A DNA stretch of 64,000 nt from Entomobacter blattae (lineage in GTDB: Bacteria; Pseudomonadota; Alphaproteobacteria; Acetobacterales; Acetobacteraceae), in contig NZ_CP060244.1 of the NCBI RefSeq assembly GCF_014672835.1, positions 571,001-635,000 of the forward strand, in the 5' to 3' direction. Position numbers and translations under genes: made by a program. This document shows, in pieces, positions 4,040 through 55,543 of the stretch. The number at the start of each line of letters is the position of its first letter. The stretch's first letter is position 1. Under the pieces are notes generated by a model. It did not search any database, was not told where the DNA came from, and saw only the letters and a list, made by a program, of their open reading frames with translations.

Positions 4040-4321
4040 ATGCATTCTCTCATCAGCCCTGCCTCCATTCCCATATTACCGCGCGGTGTTCGCCTTCAGC
4101 ATGACAGGGCACGAAATCAATGGGTGATTCAAGCTCCAGAACGAGCGTTTGTTCTCGATAGCATAGCACATGCCATTTTCTCAGAAATTGATGGTCAGCG
4201 TTCCATCGCCCAAATCGCCCAACACCTTGCCCAGCAGTACGATGCCTCAGAAGAAGCCATATCCCACGATATTATAGACCTTATGGAAGAAATGCTAAAC
4301 CTACAGGTCATTACCTTATGA
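4040..4321 (+). CDS. pqqD: PqqD, PqqA-binding chaperone
   Basis: The 93-residue protein matches PqqD: PRGVRLQHDRARNQWVIQAPER near residues 15-36, then a winged-helix segment with EISHD...LMEEM. PqqD is a RiPP recognition element that binds the PqqA peptide and docks onto PqqE. It shares the ATGA stop/start overlap with pqqE (4 bases), so the two are probably translated together in a fixed ratio. Confidence 0.94.
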   Translation: MHSLISPASIPILPRGVRLQHDRARNQWVIQAPERAFVLDSIAHAIFSEIDGQRSIAQIAQHLAQQYDASEEAISHDIIDLMEEMLNLQVITL

Positions 4322-5430
4322 CACATCCTTCACCTCCAATGAGCCTTCTGGCAGAACTGACCTATCTTTGCCCATTGCGCTGCCCGTACTGCTCTAACCC
4401 CACACAACTGACCAAACGAAATGAGGAACTTTCTACAGACCAGTGGAAGGATATCCTCACTCAGGCTGCAGATCTTGGGATTCTCCAGGTCCATTTTTCG
4501 GGTGGAGAGCCAACCATAAGGAGCGATTTAGTCGAACTGGTTAAAATTGCAGCCCACCTTAACCTTTACACCAATCTCATTACTTCAGGCCTTTTACTCA
4601 CCCCTGATCTGCTTGAAAAGTTGGCAGAGAACGGGCTTGATCATATCCAGCTTTCCTTCCAAGATACCCTTCCTGAAGCAGCCGATCTTTTAAGTGGCAT
4701 GCGCGCTGTTCAACCCCGCAAACTCCAGGCGGCAGAAGATATTAAAAAGGCTGGCTTTCCGCTGACACTCAACTTTGTTGTGCACCGTGGCAATATTGAA
4801 CGGATTGAAGACATGCTTGCCTTAGGCTATGCCCTAGGAGCCAGGCGCGTAGAAATCGCCCATATTCAATATCATGGTTGGGCCTTGATTAATCGCCCCG
4901 CTCTTCTGCCAAGCTTAGAGCAAGTGCAAAAGGCAGAGGCTCTTATTGCCCATATGCATAAATTCTATAAAAATAGAATGGTCATTGACCACGTCACCCC
5001 TGATTACTACACAGATATTCCCAAACCCTGTATGGGAGGCTGGGGGCAGCGTTTTCTCAATGTGACGCCTCGTGGAAACGTTCTTCCCTGTCATGCGGCA
5101 GAAAGTATTCCCAATATTACTGTGCCTTCCATTAAACATGCTTCCCTTGCTGAAATTTGGAATCACTCTTCCTTGTTTTCTCTCTTTCGAGGGACGGAAT
5201 GGATGAAGGAGCCTTGCCAATCTTGTGATCGAAAAACCATAGATTGGGGAGGATGCCGTTGTCAGGCTTTAGCCCTTACGGGAGATGCCGCCCATACAGA
5301 TCCCGTCTGTCATCTCTCCCCCCATCATGAGCGTATCCTTGCCATTACCCAAAAGGAGGGACAGCAGGCCCACTCACCCTCAGCACAATCCTTTACTTAT
5401 AGAACTGCCAGCTTTAATTCCCAATCCTAA
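4318..5430 (+). CDS. pqqE: PqqE, radical SAM PqqA glutamate-tyrosine cross-linking enzyme
   Basis: This 370-residue protein carries the radical SAM cluster motif C18-x3-C22-x2-C25 and the SPASM-type C-terminal cysteines (for example CMGGWGQRFLNV, PCHA, CQSCDRK, GGCRCQA) for auxiliary Fe-S clusters. PqqE joins the side chains of Glu and Tyr of PqqA, the first step of PQQ synthesis. It is the last gene of the pqqABCDE operon; no pqqF-like protease gene follows here, so precursor release must use a protease encoded elsewhere. Confidence 0.96.
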   Translation: MTHPSPPMSLLAELTYLCPLRCPYCSNPTQLTKRNEELSTDQWKDILTQAADLGILQVHFSGGEPTIRSDLVELVKIAAHLNLYTNLITSGLLLTPDLLEKLAENGLDHIQLSFQDTLPEAADLLSGMRAVQPRKLQAAEDIKKAGFPLTLNFVVHRGNIERIEDMLALGYALGARRVEIAHIQYHGWALINRPALLPSLEQVQKAEALIAHMHKFYKNRMVIDHVTPDYYTDIPKPCMGGWGQRFLNVTPRGNVLPCHAAESIPNITVPSIKHASLAEIWNHSSLFSLFRGTEWMKEPCQSCDRKTIDWGGCRCQALALTGDAAHTDPVCHLSPHHERILAITQKEGQQAHSPSAQSFTYRTASFNSQS

Positions 5431-28282: not shown

Positions 28283-29056
28283 ATGGCCACAAAAATTGGT
28301 ATTGCAGGCATTACTGGGCGCGTTGGCACCCTGCTTGTTCATGAAGTTCTGGCGACAACAGAGGCTGTTTTAGTTGGCGGTTACAGCAGGAATAAAGAGG
28401 GGAAAAATATCCCAACGCCTCTCTTTCAAACCCTTGCTGAGCTGGCTGCTGTATGCGATGTGGTTATCGATTTTACCCATGCTTCTACCATAAACCAACA
28501 TGCAAAGGCCCTCGTTCAAACCCAATGTGCCTGGATATTAGGCACGACCGGTATCTCCCCCGCTGATCAAAAAGAAATCGTTAAAGCCTCTCACAAAATA
28601 GCCATTGTGCAAGCCTCGAATTTTTCTGCGGGCGTTGTTTTAGCCACTCGTATCGCTGCCCAACTGGCTAAAGCCCTTCCTGCATCCTCTTACGATATCG
28701 AAATTGTAGAATCTCACCATAGACAAAAAGTCGATGCCCCATCAGGTACGGCTCTCTCTATGGGAAAAGCCATTGCTGAAGCCCGCGGCATTGAGCTGGA
28801 TTCCATGCGTGAAAGTGGACGAGACGGCATTACAGGGCCCCGTAAAACGGGGGCTATTGGTTTTTCTTCTCTTCGTGCTGGGCAAATTATCGGTGAGCAC
28901 GAAGTTTCATTTACCTCAGCAGACGAACAAATTATTCTTACCCATAAGGCTTTTAACCGTAGCCTTTTTGCTAAAGGCGCTGTCCAAGCCGCTTTATGGA
29001 GTAAAAGCCACCGACCTGGCCTTTATTCTATGGAGAATGTGCTAGAGTTGGAATAA
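28283..29056 (+). CDS. dapB: DapB, 4-hydroxy-tetrahydrodipicolinate reductase
   Basis: A 257-residue reductase with the N-terminal NAD(P)-binding GIAGITGRVG, the loop GTTGIS, the catalytic ESHHRQKVDAPSGTA and a C-terminal HKAFNRSLFAKGA. It makes tetrahydrodipicolinate for lysine and peptidoglycan. Start at 28283 follows CAGGAAAAG; the frame also contains an ATG-like start six codons earlier. Grouping after dnaKJ is common in alphaproteobacteria. Confidence 0.95.
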   Translation: MATKIGIAGITGRVGTLLVHEVLATTEAVLVGGYSRNKEGKNIPTPLFQTLAELAAVCDVVIDFTHASTINQHAKALVQTQCAWILGTTGISPADQKEIVKASHKIAIVQASNFSAGVVLATRIAAQLAKALPASSYDIEIVESHHRQKVDAPSGTALSMGKAIAEARGIELDSMRESGRDGITGPRKTGAIGFSSLRAGQIIGEHEVSFTSADEQIILTHKAFNRSLFAKGAVQAALWSKSHRPGLYSMENVLELE

Positions 29057-29071
29057 AGGCATCACCTCTGC

Positions 29072-30729
29072 TTATATTTTACAACCCTTAAATACCCAAA
29101 ATAAAACCCTTTTAACAAAAGATCTTACCAGGAATTTCAATCCTTTTCTTTTTCTTTTTCTTTTTTTCCATATTTTTATAGCCTCTTGTTCAACCCCCAA
29201 ATAAGCATTGCTCAACAATGGGGTTCTCATTTTAATATTATCCTTATTTCCTTTATAATCGACAATGTCACCTTTCCAATCTTTTCTCTTGATTTTTATA
29301 CCAGCCCCCAAACTCATGGAAAACAGATCAAGAAACCTTCTGGGCCCTACGCCTGTAAAAGGTTCAAATACAACCTTAGTTGTATCCTTACTCCCATCTG
29401 GAATATTTTTAATGATTATAGAATCTTTATGGAGTTCTATAGCTTTGCTTTTCGGGTAAGGTTCAACATACACAACCCTCTTTATACCTGCGGCAACAAT
29501 ATGCTTGGCACAATTATGGCAAGGAAAAGTGGTACAATATAGAGTAGCTTTTTTTGTTGGTGTTCCTACCCTACAACATGAAAGAAGCGCATTCATCTCC
29601 GCATGAACAACACGGCCAAACTCTGTTAAATCTGCAATAGCGGTTTTTTTAAGAATTTTTTCTAATTTTTTTTCAAAAATTTTTTCTGATTCTTCATTAT
29701 TTATTAGGTTATCAAAAATCTTATCTTCTTTTATGCGTGCTATAATATCGTTAATTATGTTTTTTTGCTCACGCTTGTTTGGATCATACCCTAATTTATA
29801 GTCTTTTCCTTCTTTCTCATCATCAACTTTACCGTATATATCCGCTTTTGCCCAATATACTCCACCATCACTTTGCGGCACTTCATTGGCACCGGTTGCA
29901 ATAATCTGTTTTTTACGGGTAATAACAACCCCAACCTGACGGGAAAGATCACCAGAATGGGTAGAGCTGTTAAAAGCCATAAACATGGCAAATTCATCAA
30001 AGGTTGGATTTTTGTATGGGCGCGAAAAAATAAGTTCTAAAAAACGGTCTAAGATATTTTTTACATGATCTATATTTTTCCCAAAGCGAGAAAAAAATCT
30101 GCTAAATGGTAAGTGTCACGGGTTTTTTGTCCATATTCTTCCTCTTCATTTTCATCACTTTTTATCAAATCTTCAGTTTCATTTTCACTAAGCTGTTTTT
30201 CAATCGTCAAATATTCAAGACGTTTCGGTTTTTCAGTGTAAAGACCTAATAAATAGAATCCCGCATCATATACCTTGCGCAAAAAAACAACTTCATCAGG
30301 ATGCTTCAAAGAAAATATAATATAGGCGTTTTTATTATTCATTTTCCTTGAAGAGTTTATTTTACTCGAAATACCCGCAGCCAATATGTAATTTCTATTC
30401 TTTTCTCTTAACTTATTGCCAGCAAGCATAAAGCGCTTTCTTTTGTTAAATTCTTCGGAGTTTTTTTGCCTTTTTCTATTCCAGATATCTTTAAATCTGG
30501 TATCCCATCTTCTTTTTTTAAAAGATTAGCAGTCCAAATTTCATGCACCGTATAGCCATAATTTTTTAATCGGTTTTGTAGCGGCTCTGTAACAAGTTTA
30601 TAGTTTGTTCCAACGGCACAGACAATTCCAATAACCAGTTCACTATTATTAAGATTTCCATCAAGGTAGCGTTCAAGGTCTTTTTTATCTGTATTCTCTT
30701 TTGCCCTGTCCTACAGTGTCTATATCCAT
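29072..30729 (-). pseudogene. Anti-phage dCTP deaminase, frameshifted
   Basis: Three adjacent minus-strand frames plus a short start reassemble into one protein of about 550 residues if three single-base shifts are undone: near 30710 (GG), in an A-run read on the minus strand at 30471-30475, and in a T-run at 30091-30097. The N-terminal part (ELVIGIVCAVGTNYK) is the degenerate P-loop domain; the middle has SLKHPDEVVFLRKVY and THYHLAD-like HLADFF; the C-terminal part is a cytidine/dCMP-type deaminase with zinc motifs HAEMNA and PCHNC. This order is that of phage-defence dCTP deaminases that deplete dCTP during infection. It is A/T-richer than dapB and metK and opposite to both, suggesting transfer. 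Homopolymer indels could be sequencing error, decay or phase variation. Confidence 0.75.
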
Positions 30730-30961
30730 ATCTATGGCCTTTTTTATTTACTAAAAAAATACAACAGGCTTTATTATAGCGTTTTTTTATAAGTTAAAAT
30801 TATATAATTTAATAATTTTTAAAAAGATACCTAATTTTCTTCAATTCCCCTTGACGCTGATAAGATATTGCGCTTAACGATGCTGTATATATTTATTTCA
30901 TCCATAAATCCGTAATTATGGCATTTGCTCTTAGCGTTAAAGAGGTAATCAAGAAAATATC
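30730..30961. promoter_or_regulatory. Upstream region of metK
   Basis: A/T-rich leader with a possible -35 TTGACG at 30851-30856 and only a weak -10 partner about 17 bases later. I looked for a SAM-II or SAM/SAH riboswitch before metK and saw no convincing match. Confidence 0.3.
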
Positions 30962-32149
30962 ATGCGTAATAAAGGCGATTTTCTGTTTACTTCAGAATCT
31001 GTTTCTGAAGGCCACCCCGACAAAGTAGCTGATCGGATCAGTGATACTATCCTTGATACCTATCTCGCAGCAGATAGTGAGGCACGCGTTGCTTGTGAAA
31101 CGCTGGTTACAACCAACAAAGTTCTTCTCGCAGGAGAAATAAGAGGCCCTGCCTCTATTACTGGTGACCTGATTATAGAAAAAGCTCGAGAGGCCATAAA
31201 AGATATTGGATATGATCAAGAAGGATTTTCCTGGAAAACCGCCGATATCCAATCCGTCCTTCATGCCCAATCTGAACACATTGCCCGCGGTGTAGATAGT
31301 GCAGAGGGGAAAGATGAAGGTGCGGGTGATCAAGGCATTATGTTTGGGTTTGCCACAACTGAAACAGAACCTCTTATGCCAGCCCCCATTTTTTATGCCC
31401 ATAAACTTTTACAAACCATTCACGATCTACGCAAAGCCGATGATCAACGTGTGGCAGGCCTACAGCCCGATGCTAAAAGCCAGGTTACCTTACGTTATGT
31501 AGACGGTAAACCTATAGGAGCTACCTCGGTTGTCATTTCAACTCAGCATGATGAAAATATGAGCCAAAGCCGAATTAAGGAAATGCTCCTTGACATTGCT
31601 GAGGAGACCCTTCCCGAAGGGTGGATGTGCCCTATCGATGAGTTTTACGTTAACCCCACAGGAGTCTTTGTGATTGGGGGCCCTGATGGTGACTGTGGGC
31701 TTACAGGACGTAAAATTATCGTTGATACCTACGGCGGAGCTGCCCCTCATGGGGGTGGAGCATTTTCTGGAAAAGACCCCACTAAGGTAGACCGCTCGGC
31801 TGCCTATGCTTGCCGCTACCTTGCAAAAAATGTTGTCGCTTCGGGCATTGCAGACCGTTGTACCCTTCAAATCTCGTATGCCATCGGTATCTCCCACCCC
31901 TTATCTGTTTATGTAGACTTAGATGGCACTGGAAAAGATGTTGATGAGGCCAAGCTAGAGGGTGTTTTACGAGAACTTATGGATTTATCTCCACGGGGAA
32001 TACGAAAGCATCTTCGCTTAAACCGTCCCATTTATACAGAAACATCGGCATATGGGCATTTTGGCCGTGAACCTGATATGGAGAAAGATAATTTTCCATG
32101 GGAGCAAACAGATTTAGTCGACTCCCTAAGGAATGCGTTTAACCGATAA
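30962..32149 (+). CDS. metK: MetK, S-adenosylmethionine synthase
   Basis: A 395-residue enzyme with the family motifs [13 protein letters not shown] (18-30), [12 protein letters not shown] and [19 protein letters not shown]. It makes S-adenosylmethionine from methionine and ATP, in part serving the radical SAM enzyme PqqE and the methyltransferase TrmB next door. The ORF overlaps or abuts trmB. Confidence 0.98.
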
Positions 32150-42347: not shown

Positions 42348-43329
42348 AAAATCTAGTAATTTTTAAGGTGTAATAGAAAATAAATCCTGTAAGTCTAAGC
42401 TTTATTTTTGTATTACTTAAAAAAACTTAGAGAAAAAGGGTATGTATTGCCGGATAAACGGATGCTGGATATTTCTCTAGGAAGAATGTTTAGTAAAATG
42501 TTGCGCGAAAAGGGATATAATCCAATAGGGAAAAAATTACCCCATATAATGGGAACCCGGGAAGTAGTAGATATCCACATGATGCAACCTCTTCCTATTA
42601 TAGCCCCTGACCAAAACGGAAAAATAGGGCAACCCCAATGAATATCCATCGCCAACATATCCTATTTAAAACCCTAATACCTTTATTCCTCAAAATTATT
42701 AATTTTAACTCATATTATTGGGGACTAATTTTTAATTCAGCAATAATATTTCCTGTGTAAATAGGTATAGAGCTGCCTAATTATTTTACAAATCTGGTAA
42801 CAAGAATGTTTTCAGAAACTGGTTTGATACCAAATTAGTTTCTAAAAGTCCGCCTTTATTCTTTTTACATTGGTGAATAAATTTAAACACCTGTGGTAAA
42901 GGTCCAATAAAAATAGATGTCCCCTGTAGTTTTTGTCTTCTGTGGTTTTTGCGCAGTAATAAAAAAGAATTTTAAGGATATTTTAATAGGTTGGCTTTTT
43001 TGATTGCCTTGACAAGATAGAAAATGATAATTTCAATATTATCTGATAGATTATTTTCCGTATAAGTAATGATTTTCTGAATAAAATAAAAATAAAATAT
43101 TGTGTCTATTATAATATAAAATTAAGGTTAAAAGGCTTTGGAAATGGTAAATATAAATCCTATGATGAAATAATTATTATTTTAATTATCATCAATCTAT
43201 TACCGTAATATTATGCATATTAGTAAATAAATTGAATAATAAAGAATTATTATATATTTACGATATGGATATTTCTCTAAATAAAAAATAAGTCATATAT
43301 TTCATTGTTGGAATATATTGGGAATGTCA
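42348..43329. other. Long AT-rich gap with one doubtful small ORF
   Basis: About 980 bases between hemJ and the glycosyltransferase gene. The stretch 42660-43320 is very A/T-rich and shows no gene. At 42408-42641 there is a 77-codon frame (see next entry). Confidence 0.5.
42408..42641 (+). CDS. Doubtful 77-residue ORF or gene relic
   Basis: The frame needs a TTG start, has no ribosome binding site and is preceded by a stop. The product has a basic helical pattern (SLGRMFSKMLREKGYNPIGKKLP) that looks protein-like, perhaps the tail of a lost phage-type or regulatory gene. No family is recognised. Confidence 0.25.
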   Translation: MYYLKKLREKGYVLPDKRMLDISLGRMFSKMLREKGYNPIGKKLPHIMGTREVVDIHMMQPLPIIAPDQNGKIGQPQ

Positions 43330-44658
43330 ATGAAGTACGCAGTCTTTTTTAAAGTCCATATGTGGAATGAAACCATAGAAAAAGTCTATAATAAATTGAT
43401 TACCTGCGTAAAAACAGGGGATGTATTTATCCTTCATAATAATACGGATTCCTCAATCGAGGATAAATACGGTAATCTTGTAACCATTAATATGCAAGAA
43501 GCTCTGGATGTTGGGTTAAATATTTCAGGGGGATTTTGGCATAATGGAGATTATCCTTCTATTTTATCCTTTCTTAAAATGCCCCATTATGATTATTACG
43601 TACATCTGGAATATGATGTATTCGTGAATAATAATATTGATGACATTATCACTATTATGGAAAATGAAAATATTGATGTTATTGGTGCGGAGGATAAAAA
43701 CCCTGTTCATATTAAAGATTGGGTCCATACAAGTTTTTGTATTCCCTATTATGCCGTTGATGAAATAAGAAGGGGTCTTTACTGCATAGTATTTCTTTCT
43801 AAACGCGCGGTGGTCTCGCTCTTAGCAAGGAGATTACGGCAATCAGCGATGCAAAAAGAGTACAATTTGCAAACATGGCCCTTTAGCGAGGCCGTGATTG
43901 CTACAGAGGTTTTTCACAGCAACCTTAAGGCCAGAGATTTAAAATATTTTTGTGATAATTTAGATTATTATGATTGGAAAGATGTCTCTCTGGTGGATTT
44001 TGCAGAAGAAAAATCTTTAGGGAAAAAAACGTTCTTTCACCCTGTAGCTGATTTGAAAAAATTTATTCATCTTAATTTTCAGACAAGTCGGAAAATAGAT
44101 AATATTCTTCTGGAAAAAATCATTCACGCAAAGAATACAAAACTTTTTTGTCTATCCTATCACCTGCCAGAAAATAACGAGGATAATAAAAAACAAATTT
44201 TAGAATCCTATAAACAAGTTATGGGAAATAAAGATCTCGAATATATATTTGATAATATTATTTCTGTGGGGTGTGTAGCAACTCAAAGCTCTATCAGCCG
44301 TTATTCCGCCTCTGATAATGAGGCTGATCGAGTTCTTAATATTCTCCCACGATATGGGTATTCCATTCATACCGAAAAGCAAGAAAACCCATGGTGGATG
44401 GTCGATCTAGGAGAAGAAAAAGACATTAAAAACATATATTTTTTTGATCGCCCAGATTTTGGTGGGGAAAGAACTCAAAATTTGAGGATTTCTGTGGCGA
44501 ATAATCCTGAAGAATTTCATCCAATTTTTCAAAAAAATAACACTGATCTCATATGGAATTACAAAATAGAAGTTTCAGGAAAGTATCGTTTTGTAAAAAT
44601 TCATTTAGAAGGGGAAGGGCTGCTTAATTTTGATACCTGCGTTATTACAGGCCCATAA
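43330..44658 (+). CDS. Glycosyltransferase-like protein with C-terminal discoidin (F5/8C) domain
   Basis: A 442-residue protein. Residues 1-260 look like a glycosyltransferase-A-type fold, with an acidic LEYDVFV motif near 100; the middle (260-300) is a linker; the last ~140 residues form a discoidin/F5-8C carbohydrate-binding domain (ATQSSISRYS, NPWWMVDLGEEKDI, YRFVKIHLEG). No signal peptide is seen, so it is probably cytoplasmic. ATG 43330 is chosen because GGGA lies six bases upstream. The gene is markedly A/T-rich. It stands beside the CDP-sugar operon and may build or modify a surface glycan. Confidence 0.65.
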   Translation: MKYAVFFKVHMWNETIEKVYNKLITCVKTGDVFILHNNTDSSIEDKYGNLVTINMQEALDVGLNISGGFWHNGDYPSILSFLKMPHYDYYVHLEYDVFVNNNIDDIITIMENENIDVIGAEDKNPVHIKDWVHTSFCIPYYAVDEIRRGLYCIVFLSKRAVVSLLARRLRQSAMQKEYNLQTWPFSEAVIATEVFHSNLKARDLKYFCDNLDYYDWKDVSLVDFAEEKSLGKKTFFHPVADLKKFIHLNFQTSRKIDNILLEKIIHAKNTKLFCLSYHLPENNEDNKKQILESYKQVMGNKDLEYIFDNIISVGCVATQSSISRYSASDNEADRVLNILPRYGYSIHTEKQENPWWMVDLGEEKDIKNIYFFDRPDFGGERTQNLRISVANNPEEFHPIFQKNNTDLIWNYKIEVSGKYRFVKIHLEGEGLLNFDTCVITGP

Positions 44659-49911: not shown

Positions 49912-50556
49912 TTAATGGTTTTTAATCCGTCTATTTTCCTCTAGATAATCGGATAAGAAAAAAACAAGAGATACTCGTTCATCAGAGTTAACTGTTAATA
50001 CCTCATGTGGGATTTTGCACTGGCTAATTAATACTGTACCGTAGTTTGGGCGAAATGTGTATGATTTGTTATTATCGGGATAAACAACAAACTCTCCACC
50101 ATCAAATTGTTTGCCTAAATGTATCACAACAGCAACATCATAATCAGGATTACTGTCACGGTCTATATGTCGACCAATAAAAGAATTTTTGGTCATACGA
50201 TTAATTTGACATCTACGTAAATACTTTTCTTTTCCAAGCAATTTTTTAAAAAATTTTTGGCGAATTTTGTCATTAAGAATATTAATAATACTCTCTGATA
50301 GTGGGCGGTTAACCAGTGTTGGTTTTTCTCCTGGCAGATCAACCATAAGCCTACTGACATATAGTAAATTTGGTTCGCCAGCATCACCAATGATAACCTG
50401 CTCTTGAGGTAACTTTATTTGAATATCATTAATATATTGGAGTTCTTCTTTTGTAAAGACGACTCCCATAGGAAACATGGCAGTTCCTGTTTCAATGAAC
50501 GTAGAGATTTGTTTATCGTCTATATGTATTGATCTATTGGTTTCAATATTTATCAT
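49912..50556 (-). CDS. 2-oxoglutarate/Fe(II) oxygenase (prolyl-hydroxylase-like)
   Basis: A 214-residue jelly-roll protein with His130, Asp132 (RHIDRD), His184 (PHEV) as iron ligands and Arg194 (ERVSLVFFLSDY) for 2-oxoglutarate. The FDGGEFVVYP phrase is usual for PKHD/PiuC-like oxygenases. Probably the last enzyme in the cassette, hydroxylating or otherwise oxidising a small molecule or peptide. It begins 8 bases after the 406-residue gene. Confidence 0.75.
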   Translation of the reverse strand: MINIETNRSIHIDDKQISTFIETGTAMFPMGVVFTKEELQYINDIQIKLPQEQVIIGDAGEPNLLYVSRLMVDLPGEKPTLVNRPLSESIINILNDKIRQKFFKKLLGKEKYLRRCQINRMTKNSFIGRHIDRDSNPDYDVAVVIHLGKQFDGGEFVVYPDNNKSYTFRPNYGTVLISQCKIPHEVLTVNSDERVSLVFFLSDYLEENRRIKNH

Positions 50557-50564
50557 CTTTTTTC

Positions 50565-51785
50565 CTAATCGTAAATTCGTTTCAGATAGACTACTGGTAT
50601 ATTTAAGGTAAGCGAGTAGAACCGTCCCATTTTATGATCATCAGCTCCAAGAATAAGTGGGTTGTTTATTGAATCATTAGATGTAATAATTTTTCCCATT
50701 GCAGCATATTCTGCTGCTTGCTTGATAACCAAATTGACATAAAAATCATTAGTTTGGTTAATGCAATTGTACCATCGATTATATAGATCTCGTCTTGCTA
50801 TGGCAGTTTTTAATACCCAATCTTGGCTAGATATATTACATAGATCACCTTTAATTATCCTATTTAAAAACTCATTCCATATTGATAACCAATTTTCCCG
50901 ACCACCACAAAGATTGGTAAAGGGAATGCTTTCTACAGGAACAGGCGATTTACTTTTGATAGCTCTAGTTTGTGCTTGAATTTTTGATAGAAAAGTCGTT
51001 TGATCAATATGTAATCGTTTACAAGTTTCTTCTGAAAATCCTTCAAAATCACCTGGCGCTACTATATAAGAAATATTTAATCCTAATCGATCTTTTAGTA
51101 ACTTATGAAATCGTGGTATAGCCTTAAATAAGTGTGCTGCCGTAACGCCAATACCTTCCCCTAGACCCTCAAATGTAAAACGATGTCGTGTTGCACGTAA
51201 AATTGTTTGATTTATATTAGCTAGAGAGGACGATTCTTCTGTTAATTCAGTTTCATAATCAGGACAAACTGGAGATACTATAGTTAGACTTTCTCCCGAT
51301 ATACCTTTTTGTATCCAAGTAACAAAATTTAATAGTCCAGCTTTATCTGGCCATACTATACCGATTTCTTTAAAAACTTTCCGAATTTCGGCAGAAAAAC
51401 CGTTTGGAAGCTGATCAAGTGGGTCATCTACGTCACTTTTATTAGGAACACGCCCCATTAATAACGACAATAGACTAGGTTTTAATCCCATATATGTATA
51501 ATTTGTTATAATACCATTTACTGATTTCTGCCATTCAAAGTCCTTATATTTTTCTTTTATCATTAAGTAAAAAGGTAAGTTTCTATTGGACATTTCAGGT
51601 ATAGTTTTTTTTATTTCCCAATATTTATGATGAAGGAAATTTAAATCTATACCAATATTTAAAGCACTAAAATACTCTGGTGGGGTTCCGTCAGATTGAA
51701 CTATATCTTTTAATATAGCTTGGCTTATATTGCGATTAATAAACCCATGTGAACGATTATGTGCACGAGCGTCTTCAGGTGTCAT
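50565..51785 (-). CDS. Unknown 406-residue protein, cassette enzyme candidate
   Basis: No family is recognised. The protein has several conserved-looking phrases: SPVCPDYE (171-178), GLGEGIGVTA (207-216), APGDFEGFSEE (243-253), RRDLYNRWY (331-339) and LGADDHKMGRFYS (379-391). The C-terminal half has the feel of a nucleotide-binding or tRNA-synthetase-like enzyme, but I cannot confirm this. No signal peptide or membrane helix. It lies 80 bases after the desaturase-like gene and 8 before the oxygenase gene, so the three are probably one operon. Confidence 0.6.
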   Translation of the reverse strand: MTPEDARAHNRSHGFINRNISQAILKDIVQSDGTPPEYFSALNIGIDLNFLHHKYWEIKKTIPEMSNRNLPFYLMIKEKYKDFEWQKSVNGIITNYTYMGLKPSLLSLLMGRVPNKSDVDDPLDQLPNGFSAEIRKVFKEIGIVWPDKAGLLNFVTWIQKGISGESLTIVSPVCPDYETELTEESSSLANINQTILRATRHRFTFEGLGEGIGVTAAHLFKAIPRFHKLLKDRLGLNISYIVAPGDFEGFSEETCKRLHIDQTTFLSKIQAQTRAIKSKSPVPVESIPFTNLCGGRENWLSIWNEFLNRIIKGDLCNISSQDWVLKTAIARRDLYNRWYNCINQTNDFYVNLVIKQAAEYAAMGKIITSNDSINNPLILGADDHKMGRFYSLTLNIPVVYLKRIYD

Positions 51786-51865
51786 TGCTTTTCTCCAAAA
51801 GGTTGGTAGAATAAAAGCAGTTAGATTTAAATGTAAAAATTTTTACATTTAAAGATTTACTTAAG

Positions 51866-53203
51866 TTAGTTATTTCTGCGTTTTTCTTGATTGCGTGCCC
51901 ATTCCCAAACACCAAAAGCATCACCTTTTCCATAACAGACTTGATCTCGAACTATTAACAGACTTTCAAGTAAGCCCCATGTTTCTGTCATAGGACCATA
52001 TTTTGAAGGACGTCCTTCCATAGCTGCTCGTTCTCGTGAAATAGACCAAAAATTGATTCTAGGCGAACGATGATGGTAATCGTGACTTGGTAAGTCTTGC
52101 ATAAAAGAAAATAATTTAATAGGTATATCAATGATTAATATTTTTGCCCACCATTGTATTTTATAAGCAATACCTTTGATACCATTTGTACCTTTTGGAT
52201 AAGGACGGCCAAGAAAGCGACCCCAAGTTAATGAACTCATGAAAACAAATAAAGGAACATCATTAGGTCGAACTGCAAACCATAAATGCTCAGTAATATG
52301 TTGAAGCCATGATGAGTATTGGGTAATGAGGAAAAGAGGTATTAAATAATAGATTACAAAGATATCTATTGTATTTGTTAAAGTTACGATAGTAAGTAAA
52401 CTAGTCCAAAATGCAAAACGCGATATTATCTCTGAACGGTTGGGAATGATAAAATTATGAAGGAAACGAAAATATATATGCTCCCATATAGCTTTAGGAT
52501 GAAAAGGGGCAAAAACTAAATACCTCCAAAATAAATATTCAGGCATACCAGAATAAAAACCATGATCTTTCATAAATTTTTGATCTGGATCTGCATCAGT
52601 GCATAAATAGGTTGTTGCATGGTGATCACCAGCATGAATTTTATGATATTCATCCCAGGTTAAATGCATAATTGGAATAGACATAAACCATTTACCAAGG
52701 AACTTTGCTAAACGTAAGTTTTTTATAGATGCACCATGATTGGTGTAATGAAAAGTGTGAAGAAGACCTCTTGTTCTGTTGGTCACTATTACAAATAAAA
52801 ATAAGCTACAAATTATTTTTATTAGGAGTCCAATATCAGAATTTTTATACACGAAAGCACCGATTAATAAGGAAATAAGAATCAATGCCCATGACCATGT
52901 TAGTTGTAATATAAGTTGCCATGGAGCTAAAATAGTTTCAATAGGGCGACGAGGTTCTAATTGTTTTGGATATTTTCCTGTCAGCCATGTCCAGAATGGT
53001 TGACAGGGTAAATGAGAATAAGTTGCTCTTACATCTATTCCCCAACCATAACGTGAATATCTAGTACTATAATCAATTAAATCAACATTTTTGTTAATTA
53101 ATATTGATCTGTTATCAATTTTTGTATTTTTGGATTGAGAACTATCCTCTGTGTTTAAACAATTGCATAAATTTAAACCTGAGCTTGTAAGTTTACATAC
53201 CAT
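51866..53203 (-). CDS. Membrane fatty-acid-desaturase-like di-iron enzyme
   Basis: A 445-residue membrane protein of the fatty acid desaturase/alkane hydroxylase superfamily. Histidine clusters: H149-x2-H152-x3-H156 (HTFHYTNH), H187-x2-H190 with H194-H195 (HKIHAGDHH), H302-x3-H306 (HITEH) and H374-H377-H378 (HDYHH). Membrane helices lie at about 97-140, 266-300 and 315-365. The N-terminal ~50 residues are Cys- and Ser-rich and likely soluble. Substrate is unknown; relatives include desaturases used in toxin and lipid biosynthesis. Confidence 0.75.
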   Translation of the reverse strand: MVCKLTSSGLNLCNCLNTEDSSQSKNTKIDNRSILINKNVDLIDYSTRYSRYGWGIDVRATYSHLPCQPFWTWLTGKYPKQLEPRRPIETILAPWQLILQLTWSWALILISLLIGAFVYKNSDIGLLIKIICSLFLFVIVTNRTRGLLHTFHYTNHGASIKNLRLAKFLGKWFMSIPIMHLTWDEYHKIHAGDHHATTYLCTDADPDQKFMKDHGFYSGMPEYLFWRYLVFAPFHPKAIWEHIYFRFLHNFIIPNRSEIISRFAFWTSLLTIVTLTNTIDIFVIYYLIPLFLITQYSSWLQHITEHLWFAVRPNDVPLFVFMSSLTWGRFLGRPYPKGTNGIKGIAYKIQWWAKILIIDIPIKLFSFMQDLPSHDYHHRSPRINFWSISRERAAMEGRPSKYGPMTETWGLLESLLIVRDQVCYGKGDAFGVWEWARNQEKRRNN

Positions 53204-55072: not shown

Positions 55073-55285
55073 GTGTCCTTAAGAATTGACGATCATATAA
55101 AATCTGAACTTCAAAAAACAGCAAAATTAAAGAATATTTCTCTATCAACCCTTGTTTTGTCTGCTGTTAACGAAATGGTGGAAAGTGAGTTCGACTATAC
55201 TCTTGCTGAAATGGCAGATAAGAGACGTAAAGACAATGAGCCTCATTTTGATATAGAGAGCTTATACAAGGAATTTGATGTTTAA
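55073..55285 (+). CDS. RelB/DinJ-type antitoxin
   Basis: A 70-residue protein: ribbon-helix-helix-like SLRIDDHIKSELQKTAKLKNISLSTLVLSAVNEMV, then a C-terminal toxin-binding tail ending in SLYKEFDV. The frame starts at GTG 55073; an ATG at 55068 is out of frame and hits a stop after four codons, so the start may also be damaged. The relE gene overlaps by 8 bases. Confidence 0.7.
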   Translation: MSLRIDDHIKSELQKTAKLKNISLSTLVLSAVNEMVESEFDYTLAEMADKRRKDNEPHFDIESLYKEFDV

Positions 55286-55543
55286 GGTTGTTTATGAAGA
55301 AGTGTTTTATAAGGATTTAAAATCAATCGACAAAGAGCAGGCACGTTTGATATTGGCCTGGATCAAAAAATTTTTGGATAATAAGACGATCCAAAAATAA
55401 AGGGAAAAGCCCTTATTGGGTCATTAAAAGGTTATTGGCGTTATCGTATTGGTGATTATAGGCTTATTTGTGAAATCAAGGAAGATTTACTGATTTTGGT
55501 CTGTATTGCTGTAGGACATAGTAGAACATATACAGATAATTAA
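55278..55543 (+). pseudogene. RelE-family toxin, frameshifted
   Basis: The frame starts MFKVVYEEVFYKDLKS and stops early at 55398-55400. Losing one base near 55377-55385 explains it: undone, the protein continues DPKIKGKALIG, SLKGYWRYRIGDYRLICEI and VGHSRTYTDN, the RelE/ParE C-terminal pattern. Length 266 is one short of 89 codons. The toxin would be inactive, leaving the antitoxin orphaned. Confidence 0.75.

Follow-up and report, generated by a model that had tools for sequence, protein, structure and literature searches.

Does the anti-phage dCTP deaminase gene that lies between dapB and metK in Entomobacter blattae still specify a working enzyme, given that no single reading frame spans it? 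The gene occupies positions 29072-30729 of the minus strand in the window (the 64,000-nucleotide stretch of DNA that we analyzed, positions 571,001 to 635,000 of contig NZ_CP060244.1) and is a single copy of the gene spread over three frames. Reading the minus strand of 29050-30960, we found three open stretches, each in a different frame, at 30710-30408, 30525-30070, and 30115-29072. The first of these, the N-terminal P-loop piece, matches the PADLOC dCTPase profile with an E value of 2e-8 (homology from ~30671 to 30504) and the NF041025 profile with an E value of 2e-5 (23.7 bits, profile positions 1 to 45). The middle piece matches the same two profiles with E values of 2e-34 (homology from ~30459 to 30076) and 3e-30 (105.5 bits, profile positions 49 to 189), and the third piece, which carries the cytidine/deoxycytidylate deaminase domain, matches PADLOC dCTPase with an E value of 8e-103, NF041025 with 302.8 bits (profile positions 186 to 433), and Pfam PF00383 with an E value of 9e-20. 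Both family profiles place the three pieces in the same order, and when the frame is disregarded, the full NF041025 profile is covered co-linearly, as seen both in the profile matches and in a frameshift-aware alignment. A chance match of the three pieces to the family is excluded.

Direct reading of the motifs showed that the zinc-binding signatures HAE and PCxxC, which the window copy has in common with the family, are present in the deaminase piece (as VVHAEMNA and TTFPCHNCAKH). An N-terminal P-loop-like motif, ELVIGIVCAVGT, is also present, but its frame differs from that of the rest and contains no in-frame start. A first-pass annotation of this DNA had described an anti-phage dCTP deaminase between dapB and metK in which the P-loop, middle region, and zinc motifs all survive, and our results agree with it on each point. 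The window copy differs from intact NF041025 members, to which it is 58 to 60% identical over the deaminase part, in that its frame is split and no in-frame start precedes the P-loop, and for these two reasons no single open reading frame (ORF) at the locus reaches the curated NF041025 cutoff of 400 bits, the score of the deaminase piece being the best.

Where, then, is the frame broken? The first-pass annotation had proposed alignment with known dCTP deaminases as a check, and we aligned the window copy, with frameshifts allowed, to a profile of 22 intact relatives. The alignment required two frame switches, one within 30504-30460 and the other within 30099-30075. The first interval holds plus-strand runs of seven T's (30461-30467) and five T's (30471-30475), which are indistinguishable as the site of the switch. 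The second holds a plus-strand run of seven A's (30091-30097) and, at its edge, a run of five T's (30075-30079), and here the residues favor a site downstream of the A run (profile score of ~17 versus 13.7). A codon listing of the P-loop frame showed that neither ATG nor GTG nor TTG precedes the P-loop, while the likely original start, an ATG read directly at 30729-30727 on the minus strand, is in a different frame; we therefore infer a third shift near 30710, in a leader that has no homology to the relatives. Close to this ATG, the sequence reads TATAAT at 30778-30773, and a promoter and terminator scan of the locus gave site counts equal to those in shuffled sequences. Thus, two of the three single-base shifts reported in the first-pass annotation are forced by homology, and the third follows from the missing start codon. 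As for the homopolymers to which two shifts had been assigned, the T run at 30471-30475 is a possible site and the T run at 30461-30467 equally so, whereas the second shift fits better downstream of the A run than within it.

The reading frame is disrupted by more than one lesion (two homology-forced shifts plus the inferred one), as expected of a pseudogene. We consider it very probable that this anti-phage dCTP deaminase gene, which stands alone, reached the genome horizontally and that several small indels disabled it fairly recently. The deaminase open frame also continues ~28 residues beyond the usual C terminus of its relatives. A hexamer repeat, (TTTTCT)3.7, is located at 29144-29165, where the relatives end, and it gives the 3' end of the broken gene a KKRKRKRK tail.

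A different outcome of the same breaks would be a shortened gene, in which the deaminase domain alone is made and works without the P-loop part. The deaminase piece has no start codon at its 5' end, and its first ATG is at 29986; from there, an ORF of 304 codons stays open and includes both zinc motifs, and neither of the other two pieces is as well conserved as this one. This ATG, however, lies inside a family-conserved stretch (EFAMFMAF), no ribosome-binding site is evident by eye upstream of it, and such a layout is found in none of the aligned relatives. Moreover, 12 of the 141 conserved columns of the deaminase piece are changed, roughly as high a rate as any in the clade. We regard a working short form as very improbable.

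The degree of decay bears on how long ago the gene was lost. Of the 124 positions that at least 90% of the aligned relatives conserve, 6 are changed in the window copy, which is within the range of intact relatives and no worse than several of them, so that damage at strongly conserved positions is not significant and was rejected as a demonstration of decay. This slight decay by substitution, with conserved residues hit no harder than in some of the intact relatives, counts against a pseudogene. The middle piece has the lowest identity in the clade (0.70 versus 0.79 to 0.96), and the window copy forms the longest terminal branch of the 23-member clade (1.0, a length partly inflated by the leader and tail). 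Near-normal conserved residues at the divergent edge of a clade indicate that the gene was lost late in its history and that any relaxation of constraint has been mild at most. The earlier claim of a well-kept coding sequence was broadly borne out, with the proviso that no other member of the clade has so poorly conserved a middle piece, and recent inactivation accords with a gene that is frameshifted and otherwise well preserved.

A well-preserved gene with frameshifts in homopolymers could also be an intact gene misread, the shifts being indel errors of sequencing or assembly. Both homology-required intervals hold A/T runs of 5 to 7 bases, where read errors concentrate (a second point that counts against a pseudogene), and the conserved residues are largely kept. 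Against this, we set the rest of the window, in which 44 ORFs of at least 200 codons, covering 46.5 kb, are unbroken even though they contain 429 runs of at least 5 bases, 143 of at least 6, and 49 of at least 7 (up to 9). At a single per-run error rate, the probability of three or more breaks in the deaminase gene would be 4e-4 (runs of at least 5) to 1.4e-3 (runs of at least 6), and that of two or more breaks would be 0.6 to 1.3%, all of these values being approximate because the reference ORFs were chosen for length. The completeness of the genome is given as 99.98%, and other AT-rich accessory genes in the window (43318-44658 and 49912-53203) are likewise unbroken. Since runs of equal or greater length sit in 44 unbroken ORFs, a wrong readout, one of the causes offered in the first-pass annotation, is unlikely. 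The sequence is probably correct as read, and the loss is presumably fixed.

The window contains a second broken accessory gene, a ParE-type toxin gene behind a DUF6290 antitoxin gene (55073-55540, plus strand), the halves of which (~55280-55375 and ~55385-55540) lie in different frames. With the dCTP deaminase and the ParE toxin frameshifted and the large ORFs unbroken, the breaks hit genes that are dispensable or costly and leave housekeeping genes untouched, a pattern that real decay would produce.

The same homopolymers had also led to the suggestion of a phase-variable defense gene, in which slippage in A/T runs reversibly toggles the enzyme. In its favor, runs of seven are found within or next to the switch intervals, the enzyme can burden a cell that has no need of it, and outside the breaks the gene is largely preserved. 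Such a gene would nonetheless be poorly designed, because at least two and probably three separate tracts would have to restore the frame simultaneously and the runs are short: at 5 to 7 bases, they are no longer than those in the intact housekeeping genes of the window, where unbroken ORFs contain runs of up to 9. The better fit of the second shift outside the A run and the absence of a start codon from the P-loop frame tell against it as well. The reviews that we found on phase-variable phage defense with homopolymers do not appear to treat dCTP deaminase. We conclude that a phase-variable switch is not supported and has scarcely any likelihood, and it is just as hard to credit that slippage leaves a minority of cells with an in-frame, active dCTP deaminase.

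How did the gene come to lie between dapB and metK? An AT-rich stretch of ~33% G+C fills the interval between the end of dapB at 29056 and the start of metK at 30962 (29057-30961), the flanking genes having G+C fractions of 0.44 to 0.51. The dapB-metK gap, computed from gene coordinates, is ~97 to 283 bp in seven related genomes and 1,909 bp here. In a further related genome (G015, locus L115), the two genes stand 944 bp apart (72% G+C), with an unrelated 244-codon ORF on the minus strand between them, so the junction tolerates other genes too. The closest intact relatives of the window copy are scattered among proteobacteria and other phyla, and in the tree the window copy nests within its clade with 100/100 support for that clade. 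Together, the ~1.9-kb low-G+C insert set against short gaps in the relatives, the scattered closest relatives, and the tree placement indicate that the gene was acquired horizontally at this junction. The complete 2.70-Mb genome has no second intact copy, this being the only locus of the family above a weak match, and two other loci with a deaminase domain are other genes.

In most of the nearest clade, and in some relatives farther away, the protein has ~70 extra N-terminal residues with no Pfam match. We observed this extra domain at 4161-4424 of locus L036 (Nitrosomonas sp. Nm33) and at 24 similar loci in alignment A1; Pseudoalteromonas sp. Z1A8 (L037) also carries it, and the window copy nests among the relatives that have it. 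No remnant of the domain was found upstream of the window copy, where the local frameshift-aware alignment did not extend. In two other relatives, the N terminus of the deaminase ORF has a cold-shock-like stretch in place of the extra domain; at locus L035, the match is to PF00313 (E value of 2e-4, below the cutoff), and at L040 the likeness was recognized by eye.

The predicted structure of the extra domain has a mean pLDDT of 79.7. Foldseek alone returned no significant match to this model. In a second structural alignment, the best match was the N-terminal domain of RNase HIII (4py5; Z score of 8.7, 70 residues at 2.5 Å, 26% identity), followed by a second RNase HIII structure (3vn5; Z score of 7.4), with RnlA and TBP lower in the list; unrelated folds (KA1 domains and a MoaD-related protein) also scored 7.0 to 7.4. 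A profile search with the domain gave two RNase H chains among its weak hits (E values of 0.25 to 0.34). Tentatively, then, the modeled fold is like that of the RNase HIII N-terminal domain. The extra domain could be a sensor or regulator that binds nucleic acid, and if the likeness to RNase HIII is right, it would point to nucleic acid binding by the N-terminal domain in this branch of the defense family.

The window copy belongs to the same kind of enzyme as AvcD, the toxin of the AvcID system, which deaminates dCTP and dCMP on phage infection (PMC10511110). AvcD comes with an RNA antitoxin, AvcI, that is about 171 bases or more in length (PMC10511110); a search of 29050-30965 against Rfam, which may have no AvcI model, gave no RNA match. 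Intact enzymes of the family would, by deaminating dCTP and dCMP upon infection, starve the phage of deoxycytidine nucleotides. In the course of events that we propose for E. blattae, such a gene would have been inserted at the dapB-metK junction by horizontal acquisition and then, fairly recently, inactivated by several small indels, a loss probably driven by relaxed need for the enzyme or by its cost. As the sequence reads, with the start, P-loop, middle, and deaminase parts in different frames, this copy cannot yield the full protein. A defense-gene scan would score this genome as dCTP deaminase positive from the C-terminal piece alone, and that call is probably wrong. The locus would add one further case of a stand-alone phage defense gene that was gained horizontally and lost again through small indels beside intact housekeeping genes.
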